The notes beneath the pieces are model-generated. The model did no database searches, was not told the DNA's origin, and saw only the letters and a program-made list of their open reading frames with translations. This document shows, piece by piece, positions 42,063 through 58,880 of a stretch of 60,893 nucleotides of DNA. Within the stretch, counting starts at the first letter, position 1; every line of letters begins with the position of its first letter. The stretch covers positions 1-60,893 of the forward strand of contig JAJBTU010000039.1 of the NCBI GenBank assembly GCA_020860715.1, in the 5' to 3' direction. The position numbers were made by a program, and so were the translations under genes. This DNA comes from Clostridiales bacterium. Lineage in GTDB: Bacteria > Bacillota > Clostridia > Lachnospirales > Lachnospiraceae.

Positions 42063-44066
42063 ATGAAAAAAGGACAGATAATGGAAGGGACAGTAGAACG
42101 CGTCGACTTTCCCAACAAAGGACTGACCCGGACGGAAGAAGGAACCGTTACGGTCAAGAATACACTTCCCGGCCAGAAAATCCGTTTTTCTATTTCAAAA
42201 AAACGGAACGGACGCGCAGAAGGACGCCTGCTGGAGGTCCTTCAGCCGTCCGGACTGGAGACGAGAACGCCCGCCTGCGGGAATTTCCCGGCCTGCGGCG
42301 GCTGCACCTGGCAGAGCATGTCTTATGAAAATCAGCTTGTGATGAAAGCCGGGCAGGTGAAACGCCTGCTGGATCCGGTGCTTCGCGCGGCCGGTCAGGA
42401 GGACTGGGACATAGAATCAGAATTTTGTGAGGTCGGACAGGCAGAATGCAGACAGGAGCCAGGAATGGCATCGACCGGGATATTTGAGGGAATCCGCCGA
42501 AGCCCACAGGAATTCCGCTACCGCAATAAAATGGAATTTTCCTTCGGAGACGAATACAAAGACGGCCCGCTTAGCCTTGGTCTGCACAAACGCGGCAGCC
42601 ATTACGATGTGCTGACCGTCTCTGACTGTCAGCTGGTACATCCGGACATGACAGCCATACTGACAGCTACGCTTGAATTTTTCCGGCAAAAGGACATTCC
42701 CTACTATCATAAAATGACACATGAAGGTATCCTGCGCCATCTTCTGCTGCGCAGATCGGAAAGCACGGGGGAAATCCTGATCGGTCTGGTGACGGCCAAA
42801 ACAGCTGAAGGAGAGCCGGGGAATTTGGCTGAAGGAAAATCCGGAAACAAGATGGAAGGAAAGCCCGCAGACAGGACTGAAGATAAATCTGTGGGGAGAT
42901 CAGGAAACGGGACTGCAGGAAAGATGGGGGATGAAACTGAAGCCAGCCGTTTGCGGATGAAAGAGATGGCGGCCATCTGGCAGGACTACGCAGATTACAT
43001 GGTATCCCTGCGGCTGGAAGGCCGGATCGCAGGGATTCTGCACATGCAGAACAACTCCGTAGCCGACGTTGTTCAGAGCGAACAGACCACCATTTTGTAT
43101 GGGCAGGATTATTTTTACGAAACCCTGCTTGGGCTGCGATTTAAAATTACGCCGTTTTCTTTCTTCCAGACCAATTCAAAAGGCGCAGAAGTGCTTTACA
43201 GTACGGCCCGTGAATTCGTCATGGGGAAGAATCTCATGCCTGGTCAGGATGAGGAGACAGAAAGAACCGGACAGGCCAGAGAAGAACAGAAGCAAGAGGA
43301 TATTGCTGAAAAAAAGGTTGCGATAAACTGCTCTGACAGCAGTCCGAATGTGATTTTTGATCTTTACAGCGGCACAGGCACCATCGCCCAGATTCTGGCG
43401 CCCATAGCGAAAAAAGTCATCGGCGTAGAGATTGTAGAAGAAGCCGTAGCGGCAGCACGCGAAAATGCCGTGATCAATGGCCTTGACAACTGCACCTTTA
43501 TTGCGGGCGATGTTCTGAAAGTCCTCGATACCATACCCGACCGCCCGGACTTTATCGTCCTCGACCCGCCGCGCGACGGTATCCATCCGAAAGCCCTGCA
43601 GAAGATCATCGTCTACGGCGCACCCCGTATCCTTTATATTTCCTGCAAGCCGACCAGCCTGGCGCGGGATCTGGAGGTGTTGCTAGCGAACGGGTATCAG
43701 GCGGAGCGGATCTGCTGCGTGGATATGTTTCCACAGACGGCGAATATAGAGACGGTATGTTTATTGTCCAAACTTCATTCAAAGCATCATATAGAAGTGG
43801 AATTGCATATGGATGAGATGGATGTGACAGCGGCGGAGAAGAAAGCAACCTATGAGGAGATTAAAGCATACGTCCTGGAACATAGCGGATTGAATGTCAG
43901 CAATCTTTACATCGCGCAGATCAAGCAGAAGTACGGGATTATCGAGCGGGAGAATTACAATAAGCCGAAATCTGAGAATGCAAGGCAGCCGCAGTGTCCG
44001 CCGGAAAAGGAAAAGGCGATTGTAGAAGCGTTGCGGCATTTCAAGATGATAGAAGGGAGTGTTTGA
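42063..44066 (+). CDS. rlmD: 23S rRNA (uracil-C5)-methyltransferase with exchanged C-terminal tail
   Basis: About 667 residues. A TRAM domain (MEGTVERVDFPNKGL) is followed by a 4Fe-4S cluster site (ACGNFPACGGCTW), a methyltransferase core with DLYSGTGTIAQIL (SAM), VLDPPRDGIHP and the catalytic Cys in ISCKPTSLARDL. Two low-complexity inserts break the core: residues ~265-300 with repeated EGKPG-like units, and a Glu/Gln-rich one near 400-425. After the normal end (TANIETVCLLSKL), ~95 residues follow (ATYEEIKAYVLEHSGLNVSN, then YIAQIKQKYGIIERENYNKP) that are homologous to the C-terminus of the serine recombinase at 57.7 kb. GGAGAGGAG precedes the ATG at 42063; the frame opening at 41532 is not coding. 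Confidence 0.88.
   Translation: MKKGQIMEGTVERVDFPNKGLTRTEEGTVTVKNTLPGQKIRFSISKKRNGRAEGRLLEVLQPSGLETRTPACGNFPACGGCTWQSMSYENQLVMKAGQVKRLLDPVLRAAGQEDWDIESEFCEVGQAECRQEPGMASTGIFEGIRRSPQEFRYRNKMEFSFGDEYKDGPLSLGLHKRGSHYDVLTVSDCQLVHPDMTAILTATLEFFRQKDIPYYHKMTHEGILRHLLLRRSESTGEILIGLVTAKTAEGEPGNLAEGKSGNKMEGKPADRTEDKSVGRSGNGTAGKMGDETEASRLRMKEMAAIWQDYADYMVSLRLEGRIAGILHMQNNSVADVVQSEQTTILYGQDYFYETLLGLRFKITPFSFFQTNSKGAEVLYSTAREFVMGKNLMPGQDEETERTGQAREEQKQEDIAEKKVAINCSDSSPNVIFDLYSGTGTIAQILAPIAKKVIGVEIVEEAVAAARENAVINGLDNCTFIAGDVLKVLDTIPDRPDFIVLDPPRDGIHPKALQKIIVYGAPRILYISCKPTSLARDLEVLLANGYQAERICCVDMFPQTANIETVCLLSKLHSKHHIEVELHMDEMDVTAAEKKATYEEIKAYVLEHSGLNVSNLYIAQIKQKYGIIERENYNKPKSENARQPQCPPEKEKAIVEALRHFKMIEGSV
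43855..44054 (+). repeat. Left copy of the ~200-base attachment-region homology
   Basis: Coding repeat matching 57557-57753. The 29 bases at 43935-43963 are identical in both copies, and the next ~45 bases differ at about four positions; similarity decays upstream. It is placed inside rlmD just before the stop and is the probable attL region of the integrated element. Confidence 0.8.
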
Positions 44067-44067
44067 T

Positions 44068-44310
44068 ATGAAGGCATCTTGCAAATTCAACATTGACACC
44101 GCCAGTGTGGAGCTGCGGTTTCATGACGGCACCGAAATCAGCATCTATACCCCTGATGTAGACGATGAGATTTACCCTACCATTTCCATGCAGACTGAAA
44201 TCGACTGGTTGATTTATAATGAGCCTCTGACCTACGCCAGATTGGTGTTATCCGATGAGCTGGAGGAGTACGCCAGGGATATGGCTGGAACGCACGGTTT
44301 TATGGATTAA
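44068..44310 (+). CDS. DUF6061-like small protein
   Basis: 80 residues. Pattern VELRFHDGTEISIYTPDVDD, then EIDWLIYNEPLTYARLVLS resembles the small DUF6061 proteins often found just after serine recombinase genes in Clostridia. ATG overlaps the rlmD stop by context (GAAGGGAG upstream), an arrangement that looks like a recombinase-to-DUF6061 junction and supports tail exchange at the left end. Function unknown. Confidence 0.65.
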   Translation: MKASCKFNIDTASVELRFHDGTEISIYTPDVDDEIYPTISMQTEIDWLIYNEPLTYARLVLSDELEEYARDMAGTHGFMD

Positions 44311-44326
44311 AATTATATATAACAGC

Positions 44327-44363
44327 AAGTCGCCCGCTCCCCTAATTCATGGACGGGTGACTT
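44327..44363 (+). terminator. Rho-independent terminator after the DUF6061-like gene
   Basis: AAGTCGCCCG pairs with CGGGTGACTT (one G-T pair), followed by TGTTATTTA. Confidence 0.7.
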
Positions 44364-44522
44364 TGTTATTTAAAGCATGAGAGGATTGTTCAGCTTTCCA
44401 GAAAGCAAATCAATTCTACCAGGAAAGTGTGTGCGTGGTATTTTGGATGATATGGATATATCCTGATTCCAGAAAAACGCTGCATACAGGCGGATGGAGT
44501 TCGGTTTTCCGTATCAATGGCT

Positions 44523-45413
44523 TTATGATGATTTTCGATAATTCCCGGGTGTACAATCATACTTTAACCGGAACAGTTTTGTGAAATAACTGGTATCATT
44601 AAAACCACAGTCCAACGCAATATCTTTTGCAGATTTGTTCGTTGCGCGAAGCTGTGCCGCTGCCTTTTTGAGCCGTGTTTCCATGACATATCGCATGGGT
44701 GTTGTGTTCAGCATTTCATGGAAGCAGCGCAGACATGCGCTGTTACTGACGGAAACGCTTTTTGCGATCTGTTCCACGGTCAGTTCCTCCATGTAGTGCA
44801 ACTCAATAAACTCCATCATAGAACGTATCCGGCTGATTTTCGCCAATTCCTGTTCTGAAAGATTGGATTCTGAAAAATCTGTATTCCGTAAGATGCCGCG
44901 AATCGTTTTGGACAAATAAAAGCGGGCAAGGTTTTCAAAATCATCCTGTTCCCCAGCGATGGATTCCCATGCAATTTGAAAACAACGGAGAACCTCCTTT
45001 TGCCAGGGGATTTCCTGTTTCAAAAGAAGGAACCGCGTTGCGGGATTGGAATAGAATGGTTGCACCAGGCTTTTCCAGAACACACTATCCATACTGCCTC
45101 CGATGAGACGGGGATGAAACACAGCAGAGTGGAGCTTTCCAGAAGACTGGGATCTATTTTGAATGGTGTGCATGGCTTTTGCATTGATGAAAATGCCGTT
45201 TCCGCTGGCGAGTGTTTGGCGGGCATTTTCCACGTCAACGCGCAGACATCCTTCTGTAACCAGCACGATCTCCCATTCCTCATGCCAGTGCCAAGGGACG
45301 TTTCCCTGGCGCAGATCATCGGCGTAACAGGCGATGGGAAACGCTGCATCGCCATGCCTGGAAAGTTCCTGATCGTGCAGGTCGGTGACGGTATTGCAGA
45401 CAGAAAGCCCCAT
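44523..45413 (-). CDS. AraC-family transcriptional regulator with cupin sensor
   Basis: 296 residues. The N-terminal half is a cupin-like ligand domain (VPWHWHEEWEIVLVTEG). The C-terminal ~100 residues have two HTH motifs, LTVEQIAKSVSVSNSACLRC and KSAKDIALDCGFNDTSYFTK. ATG at 45413 follows GGAGGTGA. It diverges from the MFS transporter gene across 113 bases, so it likely controls that gene. Cargo of the element. Confidence 0.88.
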   Translation of the reverse strand: MGLSVCNTVTDLHDQELSRHGDAAFPIACYADDLRQGNVPWHWHEEWEIVLVTEGCLRVDVENARQTLASGNGIFINAKAMHTIQNRSQSSGKLHSAVFHPRLIGGSMDSVFWKSLVQPFYSNPATRFLLLKQEIPWQKEVLRCFQIAWESIAGEQDDFENLARFYLSKTIRGILRNTDFSESNLSEQELAKISRIRSMMEFIELHYMEELTVEQIAKSVSVSNSACLRCFHEMLNTTPMRYVMETRLKKAAAQLRATNKSAKDIALDCGFNDTSYFTKLFRLKYDCTPGNYRKSS

Positions 45414-45526
45414 GAGATTCACCTCCGCATAAATGAATGTTTTATCCTATTTTTACGAATGTATCCTTACACATTCATTTTAAATTTGATGGTATCATCA
45501 TATCACCGAAGGAGGAAGAATGCAAC

Positions 45527-46690
45527 ATGACTCACTTGCTTTTGTTTATTATTTACCTTGCTTTTATCAGTTTAGGATTGCCCGATGCATTGCTTGGCTC
45601 CGCATGGCCATCCATTTATCCTGAGTTTTCAGTCCCGATCTCCTATGCGGGGATCATCTCCATGATTATTGCTCTGGGAACTGTTATTTCCAGCCTGCAA
45701 AGCGACAAACTGACGATTCGGTTCGGAACCGGAAAAGTCACGGCTGTCAGTGTAGGTATGACTGCGCTTGCCCTGTTTGGCTTTTCTGCTTCCCATTCAT
45801 TTTCGGCCCTCTGCCTTTGGGCAATTCCCTATGGTTTGGGAGCAGGCAGTGTGGATGCCAGTCTGAATAATTATGTGGCACTTCATTATAAAAGCAGACA
45901 TATGAGTTGGCTTCATTGTATGTGGGGAATTGGTGCCAGCATTGGTCCTTATATGATGGGATTTGTTCTGACGAGAGGCCTGCGTTGGAACAGTGGATAC
46001 CGCATCATTTCGATTTTACAGATTGGTCTGACAATCATCCTTGTGCTGAGTCTGCCGCTATGGAAATCTCTTAAAAGGGACGTGGAAACCGTGTCGTCTG
46101 GTACGCCGCGAAAGGCAATGCGTTTTTCGGAAATTCTTTCTGTACCCGGCGCAAAAGCTGTCATGGTGTCTTTTTTCTGCTACTGCGCGATTGAACAGAC
46201 GACAGGGCTGTGGGCAGCCAGTTACCTGACGCTGCAAAAGGGCTTTTCGGCGGAGCAGGCCGCCAGCTTTGCCTCTATGTTTTATCTTGGTATCACCATC
46301 GGCAGAGCATTCAGCGGATTTTTGACTATGCGGTGGAATGACCGGCAGATGGTTCGGCTCGGACAGGGAATCATAGCTTTTGGATGTCTGGTACTGCTAA
46401 TCCCATTTTCAAGTGGATTTGCACTGGCCGGGTTCATTTTAATCGGCCTGGGCTGCGCGCCGGTTTATCCCTGTATGCTTCACGCTACGCCGGAACAATT
46501 TGGCGCAGAACGATCTCAGGCGATCATCGGTGTGGAAATGGCCAGTGCCTACGTGGGAACCTGTCTTATGCCGCCTTTGTTCGGGACAATCGCCAATAAT
46601 ATCGGCATCGGTATTTTGCCGTTGTATCTCCTGGTCATTCTGTTTTTGATGAAGGTGATGTTCGGAAAGCTGAAAGGAGGTCATAAATGA
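45527..46690 (+). CDS. Major facilitator superfamily transporter
   Basis: About 387 residues with twelve hydrophobic segments, starting LLLFIIYLAFISLGLPDALL. The motif RFGTGKVTAVSVGM between spans 2 and 3 and a fold resembling FucP/sugar-permease-like MFS proteins (YGLGAGSVDASLNNYVALHY) are seen. The stop overlaps the PHP gene start by four bases (ATGA), so the two are translationally coupled. Substrate unknown; an organic solute imported for the PHP phosphatase is possible. Confidence 0.85.
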   Translation: MTHLLLFIIYLAFISLGLPDALLGSAWPSIYPEFSVPISYAGIISMIIALGTVISSLQSDKLTIRFGTGKVTAVSVGMTALALFGFSASHSFSALCLWAIPYGLGAGSVDASLNNYVALHYKSRHMSWLHCMWGIGASIGPYMMGFVLTRGLRWNSGYRIISILQIGLTIILVLSLPLWKSLKRDVETVSSGTPRKAMRFSEILSVPGAKAVMVSFFCYCAIEQTTGLWAASYLTLQKGFSAEQAASFASMFYLGITIGRAFSGFLTMRWNDRQMVRLGQGIIAFGCLVLLIPFSSGFALAGFILIGLGCAPVYPCMLHATPEQFGAERSQAIIGVEMASAYVGTCLMPPLFGTIANNIGIGILPLYLLVILFLMKVMFGKLKGGHK

Positions 46691-47538
46691 TGTTTGCAGA
46701 TTATCATGTACATTCTGAATTCAGTGATGATTCGGACTATCGGATGGAAGATATTGTAGAGGAAGCATTGGAAATGGGAATGAACGAACTTTGCTTCACG
46801 GACCATGTGGACTATGGCGTCAAACGGGACTGGGATGACCCACGAGGAATCCTCTATCGAAAAGGCGGCGCCGGAGAACCGGAAAGAATACCTCTTGCTA
46901 ATGTAGATTATCCCCATTATGTGAATAAAATCCATATGCTGCAAGAGCGATATAATAATAAGATCACGATTCGGCTGGGAATGGAATTTGGCATACAGCA
47001 GCACACCATCCCGCAATATGAAGCGTTGTTCCGGTGCTATCCCTTTGATTTTATTCTGCTTTCCGTCCACCAGGTCGAGGACAAAGAGTTTTGGACAGGC
47101 GACTTCCAGCGGGGCCATACCCAGCGTGAGTTTTATTTGCGATACTATTGGGAACTGCTGTCTCTGGTTGAGAATTACCATAACTACAGCGTTCTGGGGC
47201 ACATGGATTTGATTTCGCGGTATGACCCGATCGGCGATTTCCCGTTCTCTCAAGTAGAACATATCATTGAGCAGATTTTAAAAAGGGTGATTGCAGACGG
47301 CAAGGGGATTGAGGTCAACACATCTTGTTATCGGTATGGACTGGACATGACGCCATGCAGAGAAATTCTGGGAATGTATCGTGACCTCGGAGGTGAGATT
47401 CTGACGATTGGCAGCGACAGCCATAAACGGGAACACCTTGGTGTTTATATACCGGAAACGATGAACGAACTGAAAGGCATGGGATTCAAACAAATCTGTA
47501 CGTTTGAACACATGAATCCAAAGTTTCATCCGTTATAG
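46687..47538 (+). CDS. PHP-domain phosphoesterase, histidinol-phosphatase-like
   Basis: 283 residues. The N-terminal metal motif ADYHVHSEFSDDS and later conserved histidines in TDHVDYG, LGHMDLISRYDP and GSDSHKREHLGVYIPET define the PHP family (HisJ type). No other histidine genes are nearby, and in this cargo context another phosphoester substrate is equally likely. The last 53 bases overlap the oppositely oriented next gene. Confidence 0.85.
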   Translation: MMFADYHVHSEFSDDSDYRMEDIVEEALEMGMNELCFTDHVDYGVKRDWDDPRGILYRKGGAGEPERIPLANVDYPHYVNKIHMLQERYNNKITIRLGMEFGIQQHTIPQYEALFRCYPFDFILLSVHQVEDKEFWTGDFQRGHTQREFYLRYYWELLSLVENYHNYSVLGHMDLISRYDPIGDFPFSQVEHIIEQILKRVIADGKGIEVNTSCYRYGLDMTPCREILGMYRDLGGEILTIGSDSHKREHLGVYIPETMNELKGMGFKQICTFEHMNPKFHPL

Positions 47539-48199
47539 GAGTCTCATATATCCCAGATTTGTTCCGATACCATCGGTTAAAATACAGTTCCTTCGGACTA
47601 TGATGTGGTTCATAAACCTGACGCAAATTCCGCTCCTGTTCGCAAATGTCCATGTACTCAGGACTTGCTCCGCAGATGGGGAGTTCCTCGACATCCTTTA
47701 CATTTCGATACTGGACAATCTCAAATTCGCCGCAATCATCAAGATATGCGATGACTTTGTCAGCCGAAATGGTCGCGCGATAAAGATGCTGTTTCTCCTG
47801 GGGACGGTAATGTTTATGGCGGGCGGCAAACCATTCGGCGGTATCTAAAAGAAGCGTCCATGAAATGGAATATTTGGCTTTTTCAATAGGCTCGCTGCCT
47901 GCACGATAGACGACAAAGCTGTCCAGATTTCGGACAGTTTCCGGCAGAGCATCACGCCAGTCTTCCGGGCGATAAGGCAGAGCCATACGCACATACTTGC
48001 GGATGATCGAGGACAGATCCCCATGATGGACATAGTGGTGGAGTGCGATTCTGCATTTTACTTCCTTTGGCAAATTCTGTTCATGGAGGTAAAGTAACAT
48101 GACCGCGTTTTCTGCGTCGTAGCTGGCTACCTTTTCAAATTCTTTCCAATCTTTTTTCTGCATCGCTTTCAGACCCTCGCTTAAAATAAAATCGTTCAT
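47486..48199 (-). CDS. Hypothetical protein in the mobile element
   Basis: 237 residues (start 48199 with AAAGGATACC upstream; longer frame to 48247 not needed). Mixed alpha/beta, no signal or membrane segment; SYDAENAVMLLYLHEQNLPK and ICEQERNLRQVYEPHHSP are parts. Convergent overlap with the PHP gene. No family recognised. Confidence 0.55.
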   Translation of the reverse strand: MNDFILSEGLKAMQKKDWKEFEKVASYDAENAVMLLYLHEQNLPKEVKCRIALHHYVHHGDLSSIIRKYVRMALPYRPEDWRDALPETVRNLDSFVVYRAGSEPIEKAKYSISWTLLLDTAEWFAARHKHYRPQEKQHLYRATISADKVIAYLDDCGEFEIVQYRNVKDVEELPICGASPEYMDICEQERNLRQVYEPHHSPKELYFNRWYRNKSGIYETPITDETLDSCVQTYRFV

Positions 48200-48673
48200 A
48201 CGGTATCCTTTCTGTGAATGTATGTAATGCACAGGCTCGGTCTGCATCGTGTGGAAAGAGGCAGATTGCAGCCTGTGCCGTTTTCGGGAAAGAGGACCGA
48301 TTTGAAAAGCGTGGAGCTTTCAAACCAGGCACGGGTTCACGAAAACTGCGGGATTCCAAAGGGGCGCAACCCCTTGGCGGTGGTGTCCAGAGGAGGCGGA
48401 GCCTCCAATGGCTGGGGTTCCACAGGGGCAAGCAGCCCTTTGGCACACGACTTTCTCTCGGAAAGTCTAGTGTGTTATACCTTTGCGGAGACGGTGTTAA
48501 ACGAAAATGGAATACGCCCCTTTGATGCGTAGTCCGTTTTCGTTTTTTCTGACGGGAAAGGTAGCCGCCTTTGGGCGGCTGCAATGACCGGCAGAAAGAG
48601 GCGCGAAGGACAGACATTTGTCTGGACTGCGTGCCGTAACAGCGTCGAAACAAAGGGATACCCTTATGACTTT
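48200..48673. other. Non-coding region with serial GC hairpins
   Basis: About 470 bases with no convincing gene. Hairpins follow one another: CCAA-AGGGG-CGCAA-CCCCT-TGG near 48357-48379, GGAGGC-GGA-GCCTCC near 48393-48407, GGGGCAAGCAGCCCTTTGG near 48431, and CCGCCTTTGGGCGG near 48567. Such arrays occur in the intergenic DNA of Gram-positive mobile elements. It may hold the promoter/leader of the leftward gene at 48199 or an origin. Confidence 0.5.
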
Positions 48674-49324
48674 CTATTGAGAAAATTCCCCGCGGAGATG
48701 TTCCAAGGCGGTTTCTTCTGTCCGTTTTGCCCGGCTGTCACTCAGATGGAAATGGATCGCCGTGCCGATCAGCGTGTGCTCGATGTCGTCGGTAAAGCCG
48801 TATCGGTAGAGAAGATAGGTCTGCTCTCTGGCGCTCAGCTTATCCAGGGCGGAATATAATTCCTGCAATTCTTCTCTGCTGACCACGATCTGCTCCGGAA
48901 GTTTCGCATAAGGGTCGGCAATCGCTTCGATCCGAAGAAGCCGTTCCTCCCCATTTAAAACATCATCGAGATAGACGCGCTGATAATAGATTTCTGATTC
49001 CGGGTCGGTTATCTGCTGCTCGAACTGCTGCCTGGCTTTCCGTATCAGGTCGGTCATGGAATTCCGGATCGCCGGCGCTGCGTAGGTCAGGAATTTCATG
49101 CCGCGTTCGCCGTCAAAGAGCGGAACTGCTTTCAGGAGGCCGAGGCTTCCCTCCTGCAAAAGATCGTCCACTTCGATATCCATATCGCTTTCTTCAAGGT
49201 TATGATTCTGATAGATTTCAATCGCGGTTTTCCGGATAAACCCCCAGTTGTTCTCAACCAAAGTGGCAAGGGCGGAAGGATCGCCTTCCTGCGCGCGGCG
49301 GCAGAGCTGCTCATTGGTCTGCAT
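48674..49324 (-). CDS. Sigma-70-like transcription factor of the element
   Basis: 216 residues. Region 2 is recognisable (ALATLVENNWGFIRKTA, DDLLQEGSLGLLKAVPLFD, FLTYAAPAIRNSMTDLIRKA); region 4 is weak (KLSAREQTYLLYRYGFTDD). It starts within the last bases of the Xre gene and is probably co-transcribed. Small element-borne sigma-like factors of this type usually regulate the element's own genes. Confidence 0.8.
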   Translation of the reverse strand: MQTNEQLCRRAQEGDPSALATLVENNWGFIRKTAIEIYQNHNLEESDMDIEVDDLLQEGSLGLLKAVPLFDGERGMKFLTYAAPAIRNSMTDLIRKARQQFEQQITDPESEIYYQRVYLDDVLNGEERLLRIEAIADPYAKLPEQIVVSREELQELYSALDKLSAREQTYLLYRYGFTDDIEHTLIGTAIHFHLSDSRAKRTEETALEHLRGEFSQ

Positions 49325-50147
49325 GGCTATTCTCCCGCGGCGGTGGCTGCATCGTGGACTGCACCAAATCTACCAGTGCGTGATTGAGTTGTTTTAGTGC
49401 TTCTTCATTCACACCTTCCATGCCGGATACAGTGCCGGTGATCGCGTCCGCAAGCTGTTCCGGCGTGATGGACGGATGCCTCATATCCTGTCCCTTTGTC
49501 AGTTCTGCAAATATTTTCTTTGTGATTTCTTCTGTCTTATTCTGCGCGGCGGCAAGGTCGCTGCCGATCTCTTTTTTCACTTCCTTTATCGTTACCATAA
49601 ACTGATTTTGTATGGAACTGAGGTCTGCCTGGTAGACAGGCACCTTCAGACGGTTCATGTCCCTTGCAGCATGGACGGCTGCGTCTGTTGCGACGCTTCC
49701 ACGAAGGAAGGAGCTGACAGACGAGATCATTGTATTCTGCGCGGCAAATCCAACGGCCAGCGTATCGTCGAAATACTGCCTGATCATATAGGTCAGTTCC
49801 GCGAAGCGCGGGCTTTCCAGTAAACGGTTGACGACTTCGGCGTTTACTTTCTCTGTATAGAGATTTCGCGCGGCCTGCGCAGAAAGCCCCAGTTCGCTGA
49901 TCTCATAATTTTTCCGGTCTGGAACATCCGTAACGCCCAGAAGGAAATCGGTGGAGACGTTAAATGCTCTTGCGATGCGGATGATATTTTCATCACTGAG
50001 CTTGTCCGTCTTTCCGCTTAAGAAGCGGCTGAGCATACTGTCTGTACAGCCGATCTTTGTTGCAAGCGCTGTCTGTGTGACCTTATATTCTTTCATTAAA
50101 TCCTGTATCCGTTCCCGTACTGTCCCAGGTAAAAATGCTGTTTCCAT
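49311..50147 (-). CDS. Xre-family regulator with long C-terminal region
   Basis: 278 residues. The HTH (VTQTALATKIGCTDSMLSRF, then LSGKTDKLSDENIIRIARAF) is followed by ~190 residues of helical sequence that may mediate oligomerisation. Overlaps the sigma factor gene by 14 bases. Likely controls excision or transfer genes of the element; this is inference from place. Confidence 0.8.
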   Translation of the reverse strand: METAFLPGTVRERIQDLMKEYKVTQTALATKIGCTDSMLSRFLSGKTDKLSDENIIRIARAFNVSTDFLLGVTDVPDRKNYEISELGLSAQAARNLYTEKVNAEVVNRLLESPRFAELTYMIRQYFDDTLAVGFAAQNTMISSVSSFLRGSVATDAAVHAARDMNRLKVPVYQADLSSIQNQFMVTIKEVKKEIGSDLAAAQNKTEEITKKIFAELTKGQDMRHPSITPEQLADAITGTVSGMEGVNEEALKQLNHALVDLVQSTMQPPPRENSHADQ

Positions 50148-50373
50148 GAAAACACTCCCTCCAAAAGCAAACGTATGTTCGATTTCTATTATATTTTATT
50201 CCGCAGTGAAAAGCAATACATAGAATAAAAAATGTTTTGTATTTTTGCAAAATTATCGTGCCTCGTTCTCCGGTTTTTGCATTTCCGCCTGATTTTTCGT
50301 CTATTAGCCTTTTCCTCCGTATATTCAGGCAGATGGGGAAAAACCCGTCAAAAATCAGAAGGAGGAAAAGAAG

Positions 50374-52338
50374 ATGGATTTATTTGCAACGGTTAAATCG
50401 GCGGTCACGGTGAGGGAGGCAGCAAGGCATTATGGTTTCAAAGCGGGAAGAAACGGTATGGCCTGCTGTCCGTTCCATGATGACCGGCATCCAAGCCTGA
50501 AGCTGAATCAAGATTATTTTTACTGTTTCGGCTGCGGGGCAACCGGGGATGTGATCGAACTGGTGGCCAGGCTCTTTAACCTGTCCGCTTATGAAGCGGC
50601 GCGGAAGCTGGTGGCTGATTTCGGACTTGATCCGGACAAACCGCCCGTCGCGGCGGCTCCCGTAAACAAACGGCGCCCCGCGGTGAGGGCCTTCCGGCAG
50701 GACGAGGTGTACTGCCAGAGGGTGCTGTGTGATTATCTGCGTGTGTTGGAGGAATGGAAGGTTCGCTATGCGCCTTCCGCGCCGGGGGAGGAATACGACG
50801 ACCGCTTCGTGGAGGCATGTCAGATGATGGATTATGTAGAAAATCTGGCAGACATTCTTGCGGTGGGGGAACTGGAGGAAAGGGTGAAAGTGGTGCAGTC
50901 GCTGCTTAAGGAAGGGACGCTTCCCGCTCTGGAAGCGCGCCTGAAACGCATGAAGGAGAGGAACATGGAGAAATCCGGAAAGCAGTATGATATGAACCTG
51001 CCGATCTGGTTCGATGGGAAGAGTATCAACGAAGCCCTGTTCTGTGATGATTTCCTTAGCAGGCATAAGATTATCTTTGCGAACGGAGCCTTCTTTACAC
51101 CGGAAGGCAGGGTGACGGACAATCTGCCGCTGCGCGGAGAAATCTTTGAGGAGCTTCGTTGCTGTGCGGTCAACAACATCCCCCGGAAGATCAATAACAT
51201 CCTGGAAGTGATGAAGCTGGACGCACAGGTGGACGACTTCCCGCCGGAGGCTGACCGGATTCATGTGGCGAATGGGACGCTCAAGCTGGACGGCACGTTT
51301 ACGGAAGGAAAGCCGGACATCGTCAGGAGTCGCCTGCCGGTGGCATACAGGCCGGACGCGTCAGAGCCGGTACTCTGGCTGCGTTTCCTGGAGGGCCTGC
51401 TTTATCCGGAGGACATTCCTACCTTGCAGGAGTTCATTGGTTACTGCCTGATTCCCAGCAACAAAGGCCAGAGAATGATGGTGATCAAGGGGAGCGGCGG
51501 CGAGGGAAAGTCCCAGATCGGAACCGTGCTCGGAGCATTGTTCGGCAATAACATGAAGGACGGCAGCATCGGAAAGATTTCGGAGAACCGTTTTGCCCGC
51601 GCTGATCTGGAGCACATTCTTCTGTGTGTAGATGATGATATGCGGATGGAAGCGCTCCGCCAGACCAACTATGTCAAATCCATCGTGACCGCACAGGGAA
51701 AGATGGATCTGGAGCGGAAAGGGAAGCAGAGCTACCAGGGATATATGTTTGCAAGGCTTCTGGCATTCAGTAACGGCGACCTACAGGCACTCTATGACCG
51801 GAGCGACGGGTTTTACCGCAGGCAGCTTGTGTTGACGACAAAGGAGCGCCCCGCTGATCGGATGGACGATCCTGATCTTGCTGAAAAGATGAAGGCAGAG
51901 GAGGAAGGCATCTTCCTCTGGGCGTTTGAAGGTCTGCGCCGTCTTGTCGCCAACAACTATAAGTTCACCGAGAGCCAGAGGACAAAGGAAAACAGGGAAG
52001 CCGTCAAGCGGGATAACAACAATATCTTCGACTTTATGGAATCGGAGGGTTATATCCGGTTGAAAGAAGGTGCCTCAATCAGCTCCAAAGAATTGTATGA
52101 GATTTACCGGATGTGGTGTGAAGAAAACTCCCTGACGCCGCTGAAATCACGCAGCTTCAGTGACAGTGTGGTAGCAAGTCAGGAGAAATATCATCTGGAG
52201 CATTGCAATACAGTCACCAATGCGGCCGGACGGCGGGTATGGGGCTTTCGGGGGATCGAAGCAGTAGCAAGGCCCGATATGAACGGGTTTATTGGCGTAT
52301 CGCCATGTACGTACGTACCGGAAGAATGGCGGGATTAA
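50374..52338 (+). CDS. Primase-helicase with CHC2 zinc finger and SF3 helicase
   Basis: 654 residues. The N-terminus has a CHC2 zinc finger (CCPFHDDRHPSL with YCFGCGATGDVIEL). The C-terminal half shows the SF3/D5-type Walker A (KGSGGEGKSQIGTVLGALFG near residue 375) and typical downstream VDDDMRMEAL. This combination replicates plasmids and integrative elements autonomously. AAGGAGGAAAAGAAG precedes the ATG. Divergent from the Xre gene. Confidence 0.9.
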   Translation: MDLFATVKSAVTVREAARHYGFKAGRNGMACCPFHDDRHPSLKLNQDYFYCFGCGATGDVIELVARLFNLSAYEAARKLVADFGLDPDKPPVAAAPVNKRRPAVRAFRQDEVYCQRVLCDYLRVLEEWKVRYAPSAPGEEYDDRFVEACQMMDYVENLADILAVGELEERVKVVQSLLKEGTLPALEARLKRMKERNMEKSGKQYDMNLPIWFDGKSINEALFCDDFLSRHKIIFANGAFFTPEGRVTDNLPLRGEIFEELRCCAVNNIPRKINNILEVMKLDAQVDDFPPEADRIHVANGTLKLDGTFTEGKPDIVRSRLPVAYRPDASEPVLWLRFLEGLLYPEDIPTLQEFIGYCLIPSNKGQRMMVIKGSGGEGKSQIGTVLGALFGNNMKDGSIGKISENRFARADLEHILLCVDDDMRMEALRQTNYVKSIVTAQGKMDLERKGKQSYQGYMFARLLAFSNGDLQALYDRSDGFYRRQLVLTTKERPADRMDDPDLAEKMKAEEEGIFLWAFEGLRRLVANNYKFTESQRTKENREAVKRDNNNIFDFMESEGYIRLKEGASISSKELYEIYRMWCEENSLTPLKSRSFSDSVVASQEKYHLEHCNTVTNAAGRRVWGFRGIEAVARPDMNGFIGVSPCTYVPEEWRD

Positions 52339-52368
52339 AATCCCGTTTCCGTTTCGGTACGTATGTAC
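52307..52368. repeat. Nested inverted repeat over the primase stop codon
   Basis: GTACGTACGTACCG (52307-52320) and CGGTACGTATGTAC (52355-52368) are inverted with one mismatch, and between them CGGGATT-AA-AATCCCG (52330-52345) forms a second stem followed by TTTCCGTTT. It may end transcription of the primase gene or bind a replication or transfer protein. Confidence 0.6.
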
Positions 52369-52751
52369 GCAGCGAATGACCGCGTTTACCCGTATTATAT
52401 TTCCGGAAATTATACGCTTTCACTCGTTGAGCCTGAAGCAGCGGTATTTTCGGCGGCGGGGATTTCGGGATAATGGAAACCGTAAATTATTTAGCATATT
52501 CCGGAACGGATTTCACGGAAATCATCTTTCCGGAAGAGCGAATGAAGTCTTCGGATTGGTGGGAAATTGTGCGGAAAAATGAAAAAGCACACACTTTTGT
52601 AAACACGGAAAATCCGGCATATGGGCAGTTGCCTGTGTGAAATCCTGAGAACGCGAAACAGGTATTTTAAAAATGAAACGATGTAGCAAAGCCGGTTCAC
52701 GGAAACGTGGAGCCGGTTCTTTTTATGGGTAAGAAAGTTTGGGAGGTTTTT
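52339..52751. other. Intergenic region upstream of the relaxase operon
   Basis: 410 bases between primase and the small gene at 52752. It contains the right arm of the repeat at 52307-52368, a possible small gene at 52473-52640 and an AAAAG-CACACA-CTTTT dyad near 52602. For MobV relaxases oriT usually lies just before the mob gene, so a transfer origin is most likely here; I cannot locate the nick. Confidence 0.45.
52473..52640 (+). CDS. Possible 55-residue protein
   Basis: An ATG at 52473 opens a frame to the TGA at 52638 with balanced codon use, giving METVNYLAYSGTDFTEIIFP and then RMKSSDWWEIVRKNEKAH. The composition looks like a real soluble protein. The ribosome site is weak (GGGGATTTCGGGATA). 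Unknown function. Confidence 0.4.
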   Translation: METVNYLAYSGTDFTEIIFPEERMKSSDWWEIVRKNEKAHTFVNTENPAYGQLPV

Positions 52752-52973
52752 ATGAACACAAATATCAGAAATGAGATTAAGGCGCAGATCGTGCGCGAGG
52801 GTATGACGATGCAGGAGGTGGTTGACCTGCTGGCTGACGAGTATGGATGGAGCGATTCCGTCTCCAACCTGTCCGCGAAGCTGCAAAGGGAGTCGCTGCG
52901 CTATCGGGAGGCTGTGCAGCTTGCCGATGTGATGGGCTACGACATTGTATGGAAAAAGAGGAGGGATGGCTGA
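52752..52973 (+). CDS. Small helical accessory protein of the relaxase operon
   Basis: 73 residues, probably helix-turn-helix-like (IRNEIKAQIVREGMTMQEVV, then NLSAKLQRESLRYREAV). Its stop overlaps the relaxase ATG (TGATG), so they are translationally coupled. GGGAGG precedes the ATG. Such proteins are common before mobilization genes and may assist oriT binding. Confidence 0.7.
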   Translation: MNTNIRNEIKAQIVREGMTMQEVVDLLADEYGWSDSVSNLSAKLQRESLRYREAVQLADVMGYDIVWKKRRDG

Positions 52974-53944
52974 TGGAAAAGGCACAGTATGGGATTATGC
53001 GTTTCGCAAAATACAAAGGGCCGGAGATCGGGAATATCGAGGCCCATAATGAACGTACCAAGGAGAAATACGCCAGCAATCCGGATGTGGATGTGAGCAG
53101 GAGCAACCAGAACTTTCATCTGGTGGAGCCGAAGGGGAAGTACCGGGCGGAGGCTGAGCGCCAGATCGCGGAGGCCGGATGCCGCACCAGAAAGGACAGC
53201 GTCCGTGTGGTGGAGACGCTGATTACCGCAAGTCCGGAGTTTTTTAAAGGGAAGAAGAAAGCGGAGATAAAAGAATATTTTCAGACAGCGCTGGACTTTA
53301 TCAGGGCGCATCAGAATCCGGATACCATCCTGTCTGCCGTGGTGCATATGGACGAGAAATCGCCCCACATGCACCTCTCTTTTGTCCCGCTGACAGAGGA
53401 TGGCAGGCTGTCGGCAAAGGATATCGTCGGCAATAAAAAGAAGCTGACCTGGTGGCAGGATGAGTTCTGGAAACACATGGTAAAAAAGTATCCGGAACTG
53501 GAGCGCGGTGAGAGCGCCAGCCAGACCGGGCGCGACCATATCCCGCCGCGGGTATTCAAGGAAATGACCAGGCTCAATAAACAGCGGGAGAGGCTCGACG
53601 GACTTCTGACGGGGATGACGCGTCTGAATATGAAAGTCAGGACAGAAGAAATCTGCAAGCTGTTGGATTCCTATATCCCCGGCGTGGAGAAAATGCAGAC
53701 GCAGTTGAATAAATACAGCACGGCGACAGTGACGGAGAATAAGAAGCTGAAGAAGAAAAACGCGCAGCTTGCGCAGTCGCTCGATAAGGCCACGGAGGAA
53801 AGCACACTGAAGAAGATTGCCGACGCCAGGCTTAGAAGCGATTATGAGGAGGCGATTGCGGTACTGGATCGCATTCCGAAAGAAGTTCTGGATGTTTATA
53901 CGCGTGTACCGGCGCGGAGAAAGGAGAATGCCTGTGAGAGATGA
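52973..53944 (+). CDS. MobV (Mob/Pre) family relaxase
   Basis: 323 residues. The relaxase nicks oriT and leads single strands into a recipient using a helper's conjugation machinery. The N-terminus (YGIMRFAKYKGPEIGNIEAH) and the HxH-like metal/catalytic stretch AVVHMDEKSPHMHLSFVPL are clear, with later a coiled-coil tail (KKLKKKNAQLAQSLDKAT). MobV proteins are commonly found on small mobilizable elements. Followed by an overlapping small gene. Confidence 0.9.
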   Translation: MEKAQYGIMRFAKYKGPEIGNIEAHNERTKEKYASNPDVDVSRSNQNFHLVEPKGKYRAEAERQIAEAGCRTRKDSVRVVETLITASPEFFKGKKKAEIKEYFQTALDFIRAHQNPDTILSAVVHMDEKSPHMHLSFVPLTEDGRLSAKDIVGNKKKLTWWQDEFWKHMVKKYPELERGESASQTGRDHIPPRVFKEMTRLNKQRERLDGLLTGMTRLNMKVRTEEICKLLDSYIPGVEKMQTQLNKYSTATVTENKKLKKKNAQLAQSLDKATEESTLKKIADARLRSDYEEAIAVLDRIPKEVLDVYTRVPARRKENACER

Positions 53945-54119
53945 GTGGAGCGGTTTTGCTGATCTGTTGGCAAATCTCATTGCCAAATATGCATCGGAAA
54001 TAGGCATTGATGCCTTGCCCGATCCGGAGGAAGGTTTGGGTATATGTGACAAGACGAAAGAAAGAAAAAATAATGCCGATTCTAAAAGAGCAGTGGTTGC
54101 AAAGGATAAAGCAGCATGA
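53928..54119 (+). CDS. Small protein after the relaxase
   Basis: About 61-63 residues (ATG 53928, or GTG 53934 with AAGGAG upstream) beginning RDEWSGFADLLANLIAKY and ending with a Lys-rich tail (KTKERKNNADSKRAVVAK). The start overlaps the relaxase stop. Not recognised; typical accessory position. Confidence 0.5.
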   Translation: MPVRDEWSGFADLLANLIAKYASEIGIDALPDPEEGLGICDKTKERKNNADSKRAVVAKDKAA

Positions 54120-54142
54120 TATAATTTTCGTGAGAAAGGTGT

Positions 54143-54182
54143 CCAAACTCAACAATGAAGATGTATTCAAAGTTGAGTTTGG
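54143..54182. promoter_or_regulatory. Perfect 11-bp inverted repeat before the AlbA_2 gene
   Basis: CCAAACTCAAC at 54143-54153 and GTTGAGTTTGG at 54172-54182, separated by 18 bases and lying ~40 bases before the start at 54221. A strong candidate operator for the following gene. Confidence 0.55.
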
Positions 54183-54220
54183 GAGATTTCTAAAAACTGT
54201 ATTATATCAGGAGGAAGATC

Positions 54221-55684
54221 ATGATTCGAGCTTCGGAAGATTATTATAAAAGCCTGGTGGAAAGATTAAGAAAGCTTCCCACAGAGATGGAATGGGTGGA
54301 GTTTAAGTGTAATAACGAGAATGTTCAGATGATTGGAGAATATATTTCAGCTCTGAGCAATTCTGCCGCGCTGAACGGGAAAGAGACGGCATATGTTTTA
54401 TGGGGTATTGACGATGCCACGCATGAAGTGATCGGAACGGAGTTTTCCCCGGCGAAAACAAAGAAAGGTAATCAGGAACTGGAAAACTGGCTGGCAGGTT
54501 TGACTTCTCCTAATCTGGATTTCGCTTTTACAGAAGTTATGATGGAAGATAAGAAGGTGGTTGTCCTTGAAATACCGAAAGCAACGATAAGGCCGGTAAG
54601 CTTTGGCGGCACGGAATATATCCGGATCGGGTCTTATAAGAAAAAATTGAAAGAATTTCCGGAGAAAGAACGTGCACTCTGGAGATCGTTTGAAAATACG
54701 GCATATGAACTTCGCACGGCGGTATCGAATGTTACAGAGGAAGATGTGACGGCGCTCCTTGACTGTGCCGCTTATTATACATTATTGAAGTTGCCACTGC
54801 CGACAAACCGATCCGGCATTATCCATAACATGCTGGATGAAGAATTTATTCGTGAGATGGATAATGGAAATTATGAAATCACAAATATGGGAGCATTACT
54901 TCTGGCAAAGAATCTGAATGATTTCAGAAATCTGAAGCGGAAGGCAATCCGTGTTATCCAGTACAAAGGGAATGGAAGAACCCATGCACTCCGCGAAAAA
55001 GTATTTACCAAAGGATATGCCGTGGAGTTCGATGACATCTGCGATTATATCAATACGCTTGTACCGCAGAGCGAGGAAATCGAATCCGGTTCAAGAATTG
55101 AACACCGGATGTTTCCAGAGAAAGCAATCCGCGAAATGGTCAGTAATTTGATTATTCATCAGCAGCTGGATGTGCGCGGAGCCGGTCCGATGATGGAAAT
55201 TTTTGATACGAAAGTAGAGGCGTCGAATCCGGGCGGATTATTGGTGGATGTAAACCGGATCATTGACACTGCGCCGCATGCAAGGAATGAATCTATGGCG
55301 TCCTTCCTGCGGATGGCAAGGATCTGTGAGGAGCGCGGAAGTGGATTTGACCGCATGGAAGAAGGCATGAGTGATCTGAAAATTCCAGCGCCGAAGGTAG
55401 AGACCGGCGATGATTTTACCCGAACGAAGCTGTATTGGTATCCGAATCTGAAAGACTGGAAAAAAGAAGATCGGATGCGGACATGCTATCTGGCAACTTG
55501 TTACTATTACGTGAATGAAATAGATGTTTCCAATTCTGTGCTGAGGGGACGCTTTGGAATAGACGAGAAGAATAAGGCATTGATGTCCAGAATTATAAAA
55601 GAAACGCTGAATGCGGAGCTGATTAAGATCGCAGATCCGACGGCGGCTGTGAAGTTAAGAAAGTATATACCGTATTGGGCATAA
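54221..55684 (+). CDS. AlbA_2/ATPase-domain regulator-like protein
   Basis: 487 residues. The N-terminal ~120 residues match a Schlafen-type AlbA_2 domain (EMEWVEFKCNNENVQMIGEY, then GKETAYVLWGIDDATHEVIG). The central part resembles GHKL-like ATPase modules of COG2865 proteins (REMVSNLIIHQQLDVRGAG, MMEIFDTKVEASNPGGLL), then a winged-helix-like tail. Such proteins may be transcription regulators or, by AlbA_2 precedent, defence-related. Cargo beside the recombinase. AGGAGGAAGATC precedes the ATG. Confidence 0.78.
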   Translation: MIRASEDYYKSLVERLRKLPTEMEWVEFKCNNENVQMIGEYISALSNSAALNGKETAYVLWGIDDATHEVIGTEFSPAKTKKGNQELENWLAGLTSPNLDFAFTEVMMEDKKVVVLEIPKATIRPVSFGGTEYIRIGSYKKKLKEFPEKERALWRSFENTAYELRTAVSNVTEEDVTALLDCAAYYTLLKLPLPTNRSGIIHNMLDEEFIREMDNGNYEITNMGALLLAKNLNDFRNLKRKAIRVIQYKGNGRTHALREKVFTKGYAVEFDDICDYINTLVPQSEEIESGSRIEHRMFPEKAIREMVSNLIIHQQLDVRGAGPMMEIFDTKVEASNPGGLLVDVNRIIDTAPHARNESMASFLRMARICEERGSGFDRMEEGMSDLKIPAPKVETGDDFTRTKLYWYPNLKDWKKEDRMRTCYLATCYYYVNEIDVSNSVLRGRFGIDEKNKALMSRIIKETLNAELIKIADPTAAVKLRKYIPYWA

Positions 55685-55785
55685 AATTTCGTTGATGGGT
55701 AGTTGATTGTCGGCCTGTTTTTTACGGAAAAACCTTGAAAACCCGCTGATTTTTAAGAAAAATTTCGTTGACGGGTAGTTGATTG
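55683..55785. repeat. Two 27-base direct repeats before the serine recombinase
   Basis: 55683-55709 and 55759-55785 match at 26 of 27 positions (AAAATTTCGTTGA-GGGTAGTTGATTG, T/C differing), 76 bases apart. The second ends just before the recombinase start. They may be recombinase-directionality or regulator binding sites. Confidence 0.65.
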
Positions 55786-55794
55786 AGGGGAAGA

Positions 55795-57756
55795 ATGATG
55801 GCTAAAGAAAAAATCAAAGTTTACACTTATACGAGGGTATCTACAACCATGCAGATCGACGGATATTCTCTGGACGCACAGAAGAATCGCATGAAAGCGT
55901 ATGCGGACTATAATGATTATGAAATCGTTCATGAGTATGAAGATGCGGGTAAATCCGGAAAGTCCATTGAGGGCAGGCTTCAGTTCTCGCAGATGATGGA
56001 GGATATCAAATCAGGAAAAGACCATGTTTCTTTTGTGCTGGTGTTTAAACTGTCCCGTTTTGGGAGAAACGCAGCGGATGTGCTCAGTACCTTACAGGTT
56101 ATGCAGGATTTTGGTGTAAATCTGATCTGCGTGGAGGATGGGATTGATTCTTCAAAGGACGCGGGAAAACTGATGATTTCCGTCCTTTCGGCGGTCGCGG
56201 AAATCGAGAGGGAAAACATTCGTGTTCAGACCATGGAAGGGCGCATCCAGAAAGCCAGAGAAGGACGATGGAACGGAGGCTTCGCTCCTTATGGATATCA
56301 GCTTGTCGATGGAAAACTTGAAATCAATGAGGAGGAAGCTCCTGCGATACGAATTATTTTTGATCAGTATGTGAATACGGATATGGGGGCAAATGGGATT
56401 GCAAAGTATCTGGAAAATCATGGTGTTCATAAGATCCCACGTCAAAACGGGAAAAATCCGCTCTTTGATTCGCATTTGATTCGTTTGATTCTGAAAAATC
56501 CTGTTTATTGCGGGAAAATTGCGTATGGGCGCAGAAAGACGGAAAAGGTACATGGAACAAGAAATGACTACCGCTTGATTGAGCAGGATAATTATCTTCT
56601 GGTGGATGGGCAGCATGAACCGATCGTGTCAGAGAATGTGTGGCAGTCTGCCCAGGTAAAGCTGCTTTCCCAGGCAAAGAAATATGAGCATGTAAATAAA
56701 GTAAAAGATGAACGAACTCATCTGCTATCCGGAATTGTGAAATGCCCGGTATGCGGCGCCGGTATGTATGGAAATAAGAGCATCAAACATAAAAAGGACG
56801 GTACAAAGTATAAGGATTTTTATTATTATGGCTGTAAACATCGGAAGATGCTTTATGGGCATAAGTGTGACTACAAAAAACAGATTCATGAGGAACTGTT
56901 GGACGATGCGGTAGCAGAGGTTATCGCGAAGCTGGTCAGTAATCCGAAATTCGCGGCGATGATGCAGGATAAGATCAATACGAAAGTGGATACCACCGCC
57001 ATTGATCAGGAGATTGCCAGTTATGAGAAGCAGCTTCGACAAAGTTATAGCACGAAATCCCGGCTGATGGAGGAAATAGATTCTCTCGATCCGGATGACA
57101 GGCATTACATAAGAGTAAAGGCAGATCTGGATGACAGGCTCTATCGCATGTATGATAAAATTGAGGATTTGGAGTCAAAACTGGTAGAAGCACGGGCAAA
57201 GAAACAGACCATTGAAGCGGAGAAACTGACCGGAGATAATATTTACAAAGTGCTGATCTACTTTGATAAACTGTACGCAGTGATGAATGAAGTGGAAAAG
57301 CGTCAGGTTATGGAGGCATTGATCGCAGAGGTACAGGTATATGAGGAGCGTCAGGCGAACGGACAGTGGCTGAAATCCATTAAATTCAAGCTGCCGATCA
57401 TTGAGGAAGATATGAATATAAGTTTGGACAATGATGAACATATCGAGACGGTTGTTCAACTTTCCAAGGGAGAAATCAACTCCAAGAAAGTGCGTGTAGA
57501 GTTCTCTCTGGAGGATATGGATATGTCGGGATTCCAGAAAGGTGCTACCTACGGACAGATTAAGGAGTATGTGAAAGAGCATACAGGACTGTCTGTGTCC
57601 TCTCTGTACATTGCACAGATAAAGCAGAAGTATGGGATTATCGAGCGGGAGAATTACAATAAACCGAAGTCTGAGAATGCAAGGCAGCCACAGTGTCCGC
57701 CGGAGAAAGAGGCGGCAATTACGGAAGCGCTGCGATGGTTCAAGATGATTGAATGA
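55795..57756 (+). CDS. Large serine recombinase of the element
   Basis: About 653 residues. The resolvase catalytic domain is intact: nucleophile Ser in YTRVSTTMQIDGYS, FVLVFKLSRFGRN, and SAVAEIERENIRVQTMEGR. A recombinase domain with ADPYGY-like (NGGFAPYGYQL) follows, then a zinc-ribbon (CPVCGAGMYGN...CKHR...C) and a coiled coil near residues 400-470. The last ~90 residues are homologous to the RlmD tail. Mediates integration and excision. GAGGGGAAG precedes the ATG; ATG at 55798 is an alternative. Confidence 0.9.
   Translation: MMAKEKIKVYTYTRVSTTMQIDGYSLDAQKNRMKAYADYNDYEIVHEYEDAGKSGKSIEGRLQFSQMMEDIKSGKDHVSFVLVFKLSRFGRNAADVLSTLQVMQDFGVNLICVEDGIDSSKDAGKLMISVLSAVAEIERENIRVQTMEGRIQKAREGRWNGGFAPYGYQLVDGKLEINEEEAPAIRIIFDQYVNTDMGANGIAKYLENHGVHKIPRQNGKNPLFDSHLIRLILKNPVYCGKIAYGRRKTEKVHGTRNDYRLIEQDNYLLVDGQHEPIVSENVWQSAQVKLLSQAKKYEHVNKVKDERTHLLSGIVKCPVCGAGMYGNKSIKHKKDGTKYKDFYYYGCKHRKMLYGHKCDYKKQIHEELLDDAVAEVIAKLVSNPKFAAMMQDKINTKVDTTAIDQEIASYEKQLRQSYSTKSRLMEEIDSLDPDDRHYIRVKADLDDRLYRMYDKIEDLESKLVEARAKKQTIEAEKLTGDNIYKVLIYFDKLYAVMNEVEKRQVMEALIAEVQVYEERQANGQWLKSIKFKLPIIEEDMNISLDNDEHIETVVQLSKGEINSKKVRVEFSLEDMDMSGFQKGATYGQIKEYVKEHTGLSVSSLYIAQIKQKYGIIERENYNKPKSENARQPQCPPEKEAAITEALRWFKMIE
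57557..57753 (+). repeat. Right copy of the attachment-region homology
   Basis: Matches 43855-44054; identical core at 57634-57662. It encodes the last ~65 residues of the recombinase. By the tail-exchange reading this copy is the original 3' end of rlmD now attached to the recombinase gene. Confidence 0.75.
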
Positions 57757-57775
57757 TACTTTATATTGCGTTTTA

Positions 57776-57810
57776 TATATGGACGGTTCTCTGCTTGAGC
57801 CGTCCATATA
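57776..57810 (+). terminator. Rho-independent terminator after the recombinase
   Basis: TATATGGACGG and CCGTCCATATA pair perfectly over 11 bp, followed by ATTATG. If the tails were exchanged, this was the native terminator of rlmD. Confidence 0.75.
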
Positions 57811-57874
57811 ATTATGTCATAGTGAAAATAAAAGAGGCGTGAAAAACCAGTTCTTTTATCAATTTGCACTCAGA

Positions 57875-58754: not shown

Positions 58755-58777
58755 TTCTGTCCGCGAGCCAATCGCCT

Positions 58778-58814
58778 GATGAACCGGTAGCCTTATAACA
58801 AATACCGGTTCATC
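58778..58814 (+). terminator. Attenuator hairpin between precursor and modifying enzyme
   Basis: GATGAACCGGTA (58778-58789) pairs with TACCGGTTCATC (58803-58814), a 12-bp stem with no T-run after. It may stabilise precursor mRNA or reduce read-through to the enzyme genes, giving excess precursor. Confidence 0.6.
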
Positions 58815-58880
58815 GGGCACCCACGAAATATTATCCGTTCATCGGATTTTACGATATAAACTAAAAGGAGACCATGCTTT

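Follow-up and report, generated by a model that had tools for sequence, protein, structure and literature searches.

Exchange of gene ends on integration has been described for streptococcal integrative and conjugative elements (ICEs) in rumA, in which one serine integrase is used and the 3' parts of rumA and of the integrase gene are reciprocally exchanged with a change of frame (Ambroset et al. 2016, PMC4701971). Functional differences were suggested for the rumA integrases in the same work, which also cites a study of Mx8 for the lower activity of the integrated form of that tyrosine integrase. In C. difficile 630delta-erm, insertion of CTn5, which adjoins CTn7 and whose junctions were shown by polymerase chain reaction, left rumA fused to CD1844A, an open frame similar to the C-terminal end of a rumA homologue from E. 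faecalis (van Eijk et al. 2015, PMC4320837). Phage Phi-m46.1, found in streptococcal rum, has an 18-bp attB, GCATCACGTGGAGTGTGT, and its circular forms were detected and sequenced (PMC4288039). The stretch analysed here (the window) is the 60,893 nucleotides of contig JAJBTU010000039.1 from a gut Clostridiales bacterium of the Lachnospiraceae (GenBank assembly GCA_020860715.1, forward strand), and it carries a 13,696-bp element that reaches from the 3' part of the rlmD gene to the 3' part of a large serine recombinase gene. Comparison with related genomes makes it very probable that this element inserts by means of its large serine recombinase at the (V/I)-E-T-V codons of RlmD, with attP in its own recombinase gene, and that the C-terminal tails of the two proteins are thereby swapped in frame.

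The rlmD gene (42063-44066, + strand) has a product of 667 aa, and the recombinase gene (55798-57756, + strand) is a 652-aa open frame in the integrated state. The recombinase contains the Resolvase (PF00239, 3e-37), Recombinase (PF07508, 1.5e-18) and Zn-ribbon (PF13408, 9.3e-13) domains of the large serine recombinases, and its residues 3-568 match the PHROG 95 integrase. The C-terminal tails of the two proteins are homologous, as had been proposed in the original prediction; the homology is borne out by a direct repeat, D1 (43797-44054 and 57496-57753), of 258 nt with 74% identity, and it reaches further left than was said there, to GAGACGGT at 43749 and 57445. This sequence stands in the same codon phase in both genes, after ATA in rlmD and after ATC in the recombinase gene, and is taken as the core of attL (43749-43756, + strand) and, within the recombinase gene, of attR (57445-57452, + strand). 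In each gene the Glu codon is in phase 0 and the tail is read in frame. Model TIGR00479 (rumA) ends at residue 563, its last position (432/432), which is this Glu, while NF009639 and the RlmC/TrmA models extend to RlmD residue 570. The rlmD body comprises codons 1-563 (42063-43751, + strand) and is followed by tail A, 104 residues that would be element-derived (43752-44063, + strand; stop codon 44064-44066). In the recombinase, residues 1-550 would be the body belonging to the element and residues 551-652 tail B, whose 102 residues (57448-57753, + strand) appear, from the rlmD of G011 (L066), the right arm of G013 (L037) and G007 (L020), to be the tail that rlmD had before this insertion (G-numbers denote genomes and L-numbers loci).

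The breakpoint was placed from four congeners, G007, G011, G013 and G020. Up to 43748 the rlmD of G007 (L071) equals the window at 60 of 60 bases and that of G013 (L069) at 58 of 60, and both differ from it thereafter. On another contig of G013 (L037) the right arm agrees at 51 of 144 positions before 57445 (35%) and at 52 of 56 just after it (93%), the match continuing past a predicted hairpin and an HxlR gene to 59253. The rlmD of G011 (L066) matches the left arm of the window at 51 of 60 bases and then the recombinase tail at 57 of 60, against 23 of 60 for the RlmD tail. In G020 (L098) a different rlmD is found on the left end of the window element, with 72% identity over 43350-43748 and 89% over 43749-44066. 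These comparisons place the crossover at the conserved (V/I)-E-T-V codons near the end of the canonical RlmD (43749-43756 and 57445-57452). The arms share GA, so the first two bases of the Glu codon (43749-43750 in attL) are probably the crossover dinucleotide.

It is proposed that attP lies inside the recombinase gene of the element and agrees with attB in rlmD in both codons and phase. A single crossover, for which the GA of the Glu codon is the likeliest place and this recombinase the presumed catalyst, would join RlmD residues 1-563 to the 104-residue tail of the element, followed by the gene for a DUF6061 protein and the remainder of the element; the same crossover would join the recombinase body, residues 1-550, to whichever tail rlmD previously had. 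With the crossover at the Glu codon the entire tails of about 100 residues would be exchanged, in frame, and RlmD and the recombinase would both be near full length because rlmD already had the homologous tail B. By residue count, the excised recombinase, reading into tail A across the circular junction, would have 550+104 residues and the RlmD of the empty site 563+102; an effect on recombinase activity may follow. Where an rlmD had only a short end, a recombinase ending 9-13 residues past the Glu would be expected. According to the original prediction, attP lay in the 3' coding end of the recombinase gene, rlmD received the element-side tail and the recombinase the chromosomal one, and the recombinase would differ between integrated and circular forms. 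Comparison of the arms agrees with an att site within both genes, with the direction of the swap and with the expected difference between the two forms, but not with the 29-base block at which the site had been put.

Both ends of such elements were also found on single contigs of other genomes. In the isolate Sellimonas caecigallum SW451 a tailed RlmD and a recombinase ending TVVLMSRVKN lie about 17.6 kb apart, with relaxase- and primase-like genes, named only by their resemblance to those of the window, in the interval. A contig of an uncultured Lachnospiraceae bin (L163) carries a tailed RlmD and a recombinase ending VIIMMQYCGKEKN, and both ends are likewise present in G053 (L271, L272), G054:C32 and G321 and, with the recombinase reduced to a remnant, in Dorea sp. 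5-2 (L191) and G035 (L082). Chimerism is seen on both the RlmD and the recombinase side, and G054:C32 and the single-contig (complete) genome G321 contain tandem arrays. In G321 the RlmD has one tail type, the first recombinase a tail-B type followed by DUF6061 and the second recombinase a third type; the tail type of RlmD recurs at 507818.

Since tandem arrays exist, the left end of the window element (tail A, DUF6061 and cargo) and its recombinase might come from two elements of a collapsed array, in which case the tails would still obey the exchange rule and the 13.7 kb would not be one excisable unit. The G020 element, in which the left end is shared up to 47867 and sequence matching 52809-52904 follows at once, speaks for such a history. 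It is nevertheless improbable for the window, where the primase-like protein, the relaxase and the recombinase occur once each and follow one another in this order, as also seen in S. caecigallum, and in which no internal att-like site was noticed, no systematic search having been made.

The 29-base block claimed in the original prediction is present as described: the copy in the rlmD tail (43935-43963, + strand), which is conserved coding sequence, is identical to the copy in the recombinase tail (57634-57662, + strand). This exact match is what would favour a crossover within the block; the exchange would then be confined to the final part of the tails, and the homology upstream of it would be older. 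The congener breakpoints, however, put the crossover at the Glu codon, 186 bases before the block: the rlmD of G011 has the recombinase-type tail from that codon on, the right arm of G013 is common to the window from 57445, 189 bases before the block, and identity in G020 rises from 43749. An exact shared stretch of at least 29 bases was found in 5.4% of 1252 comparable tail pairs (70-80% protein identity). Over 70 codons, tails A and B differ by 24 silent changes and 10 replacements, with a ratio of nonsynonymous to synonymous rates (dN/dS) of 0.09, so that constraint on the protein can maintain such a block. The 29-base identity alone is therefore weak evidence for a crossover site, and the block was rejected as such, its involvement being very unlikely.

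On the RlmD side, the tail was detected in 23 of the 47 genomes of the window's genus, and 40 RlmD places of the genus were compared, some, such as those of G023, G027 and G029, being left out. The Glu is kept in all 40 proteins and the C-terminus is hypervariable after it: there are four full tails, three tails cut by the contig end, one broken tail, four ends of the DMEDYY type, one cut and undecided end and 27 short ends, at least four of which (L089, L093, L095 and L105) resemble broken tails. In a set of 71 tailed RlmDs mean identity was 46% over the left 90 aa and 78% over the right 92 aa, the latter value being inflated by the collection of most of these proteins through tail similarity. 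Left and right identity show a weak positive link that remains in the Mantel test (r 0.06, p 0.043). At least 95% identity on the right was found for 107 of 2485 RlmD pairs, whose median identity on the left was 45%, and the pairs L132/L135 and L126/L135, from different genera, show no difference in the 270 bases compared on the right, with 34-37% aa identity on the left.

On the recombinase side, 14 of the 35 junctions listed were assigned to the query from the window, and 11 remained after removal of L206 and L279, of another recombinase family, and of L044, a repeat of L082. These 11 recombinases, among which those of L191, L209, L214, L334 and L082 are fragments, decayed or cut, have bodies 59-85% identical to that of the window where measured, and past the Glu position no two of them are the same, so that there are 11 ends, or ten types if the window and L200, whose tails are similar, are taken together. 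Three of them (window, L191 and L200) have a tail of about 100 residues and seven stop 9-13 residues past the Glu position; short ends that do not resemble the tail, such as IQKKNS, MQYCGKEKN and MSRVKN, start at the same junction. It could be supposed instead that there is no site-specific exchange and that homologous recombination or gene conversion between rlmD and recombinase genes has spread the tail as an ordinary domain. The homology of the tails, which in different genera goes up to identity over 270 bases, and the purifying selection on them would suit this view, but it is hardly credible: RlmD and recombinase bodies whose left sides have strongly diverged break at one and the same codon, and the short, dissimilar ends also start there.

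Two short RlmD ends, LHKPF (L072, L076, L091, L206) and GLQRVDT/KDT (L081, L087, L090, L096, L204), recur at recombinase ends, and a ParA gene follows where this was looked at (L090, L204 and L206). Because it does so behind rlmD and recombinases alike, these ends look like the left ends of other elements using this site, and the idea that the short RlmD ends are ancestral was in part rejected on the same grounds.

The origin of the tail was considered as well. At least eight recombinases (G000:C31, L040, L106, L109, L117, L196, L202 and L211) have the same C-terminal domain and no VETV site, from which it would follow that the domain is native to the recombinase family and a guest on RlmD. 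Several of these proteins are the first of two tandem recombinases, and L040, L109 and L196 have a related (V/I)-E-T-W near the VETV position. In G000:C31:7350-10888 (L002, L003) two large serine recombinases stand in tandem, the first tailed and devoid of the VETV site, and similar pairs occur in L106, L109, L117, L196 and L202. On RlmD the tail stays constrained (median dN/dS 0.075; 137 usable pairs of 400 sampled). It matches PHROG 27283 and no Pfam or NCBIfam family; its AlphaFold2 model has three helices with a mean predicted local distance difference test score of 71, and a comparison with the PDB gave no fold match at E 0.001, the best sequence match being at E 0.076.

The first gene at the left end of the element encodes the DUF6061 protein (44068-44310, + strand; PF19537, 6.1e-24); the original prediction had likewise placed a DUF6061-like gene right behind rlmD. 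Its ATG is at 44068, one base past the rlmD stop codon. That tail and DUF6061 together make up the left end of the element would agree with the position of DUF6061, which is directly behind the RlmD tail in the window and in other genera and follows the tail of a recombinase in G054:C32 and G321. The 29 DUF6061 loci examined from the family survey had a tail in front in nine cases, another frame in two and the pattern unmatched in 18; among the 14 matches in the genus, DUF6061 is behind a tail in G000, in G039 and, for one of two copies, in G020.

It is conceivable, although rather unlikely, that RlmD serves as a parking place for the C-terminal domain of the recombinase, the excised recombinase carrying the domain of about 100 residues and integration moving it to RlmD. 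At a site used for the first time, the integrated recombinase would then be shortened by about 90 residues, which could set the direction of the reaction or lock the element in. At a site already used it would inherit the domain of another element, so that domains would circulate between elements via rlmD and the history of the rlmD site would be recorded in the recombinase.

A number of observations weigh against insertion by a single exchange at the Glu codon, or complicate it. Neither a contiguous empty site in the same species nor a circular junction was found. The loci L066 and L162 have GAGACTGT in place of GAGACGGT, so the dinucleotide is not fixed, and in L066 the contig stops after 94 bases of tail B. 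Among the 11 recombinases, that of L271 ends after 37 residues and has no Glu at the junction. In G005 (L203, C31) and G046 (L204, C16) the flank behind the recombinase matches another RlmD class, running in G046 into a ParA gene, although the contig's own tailed RlmD is a different paralogue; both were set aside as clean attL/attR pairs, and rearrangement between sites or tandem elements may account for the pattern beyond a single insertion. Many DUF6061 copies are not behind a tail. In other genera DUF6061 follows tail B, which must therefore also once have been the left end of an element, and tail B is called resident here in the sense of present before this insertion, not of ancestral. Many of the genomes are fragmented metagenome-assembled genomes, with several contigs ending at or near tails.

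The three genomes of the genus Sellimonas yielded no empty site; what they gave was a further recombinase end (L334) and a short match that is unrelated (L335). Tail matches in phage and plasmid collections comprised 11 phage records and one plasmid record, and in the five phage records and the plasmid record inspected no attP form was recognisable; L114 and the IMG/VR loci L106, L196 and L200 contain a recombinase with a tail, indistinguishable from attR.

Other tail sites were noted in passing. In G013 the same element end (..SCNVET) occurs at two loci (L015, L037), once with the tail-A type and once with tail B, apparently one element family at two sites. In G020:C69 (L014/L215) a homologue of the right flank of the window (59207-57903) is joined to tail A in inverted orientation, for which a single insertion is insufficient. 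Defence-like genes were seen at the tail sites of Dorea sp. 5-2 (L191:10322-13125; AIPR/AbiU-like and DUF1016/PDDEXK, PDC-S02) and of Bacterium D16-36 (L178:6141-12963; a SIR2 protein and a restriction-modification-like methyltransferase).

Behind DUF6061 the element carries a cargo of an AraC-type regulator (- strand), a major facilitator superfamily transporter (+) and a HisJ/PHP phosphatase (+) at 44523-47538, followed by a sigma-70-like protein and a helix-turn-helix regulator (48674-50147, - strand), a primase-like protein with CHC2 zinc finger, DUF5906 and D5-like regions (50374-52338, +), a Mob_Pre relaxase (52847-53944, +; PF01076, 7.5e-52) and a protein with SLFN/AlbA_2 and HATPase_c_4 domains (54221-55684, +). 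With its relaxase, primase and serine recombinase, found in a scan of the larger open reading frames, the element looks like an integrative and mobilizable element (IME) rather than the phage that the original prediction had named. The right arm is resident: 57757-57874 is identical in G013 at 117 of 118 positions, and the HxlR regulator gene (57875-58246, - strand; PF01638) is common to G013. A strong terminator had been expected behind the right copy; a hairpin is indeed predicted at 57776-57810 (+ strand), and folding of 57750-57840 gave -26.3 kcal/mol (z -3.4), but the hairpin has no T-run and a terminator scan downstream of the right copy was empty. Further into the resident flank (58467-59930) an ACGX-repeat peptide (TIGR04341, 1.3e-24; four copies at 51-base spacing) adjoins a radical SAM/SPASM maturase (TIGR04340, 3.2e-183), a pair resembling those of ribosomally synthesized and post-translationally modified peptides.

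For this common hotspot in gut Clostridia a rule may be drawn from these data, namely that the C-terminal variation in RlmD and that in this recombinase family can be the two faces of a single att junction. If so, the recombinase sequence in an integrated genome would often not be the one that catalyses integration, which matters when integrases are cloned as tools, and it becomes testable whether moving the conserved domain on or off the recombinase controls direction.

The principle of 3'-end exchange is already known from the streptococcal rumA and serine integrase genes (PMC4701971) and from the CTn5-rumA fusion (PMC4320837), and the streptococcal precedent limits the surprise. As in the streptococcal ICEs, the target is the 3' part of rumA/rlmD, with the breakpoint at Glu563 and the RlmD-family models ending at 563-570. 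The short direct repeats (2-21 bp) in rumA and the integrase gene have their counterpart in GAGACGGT at 43749 and 57445, and the comparative breakpoints point to a reciprocal exchange of the 3' ends. The integrase C-terminus differs in the excised streptococcal elements, and the same is expected here. Unlike those cases, in which the frame changes, both tails are in frame here, the traded pieces are homologous domains, and the element is IME-like and found in Clostridia. CTn5 likewise fused rumA to an element-linked open frame, a change of the recombinase tail not being described in the passages on CTn5 (PMC4320837). The attB of Phi-m46.1 covers the same H-V-E codons as the window site, with the codon frame assigned in this analysis, although that element is a phage and the passages on it do not discuss tail exchange (PMC4288039). 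Mx8 (via PMC4701971) and the archaeal suicidal integrases (PMC8371274) also have attP inside the integrase gene, which is altered by integration; these are tyrosine recombinases that are truncated C-terminally or split, whereas the integrated recombinase here is of the serine type, remains an open frame of 652 residues and would undergo a domain-for-domain replacement. No account of in-frame domain exchange in Clostridia was seen in the open-access literature searched. What is added to the known systems is thus an in-frame exchange of homologous, constrained domains, spread over several Clostridia genera, together with arrays whose successive recombinases have different tails.

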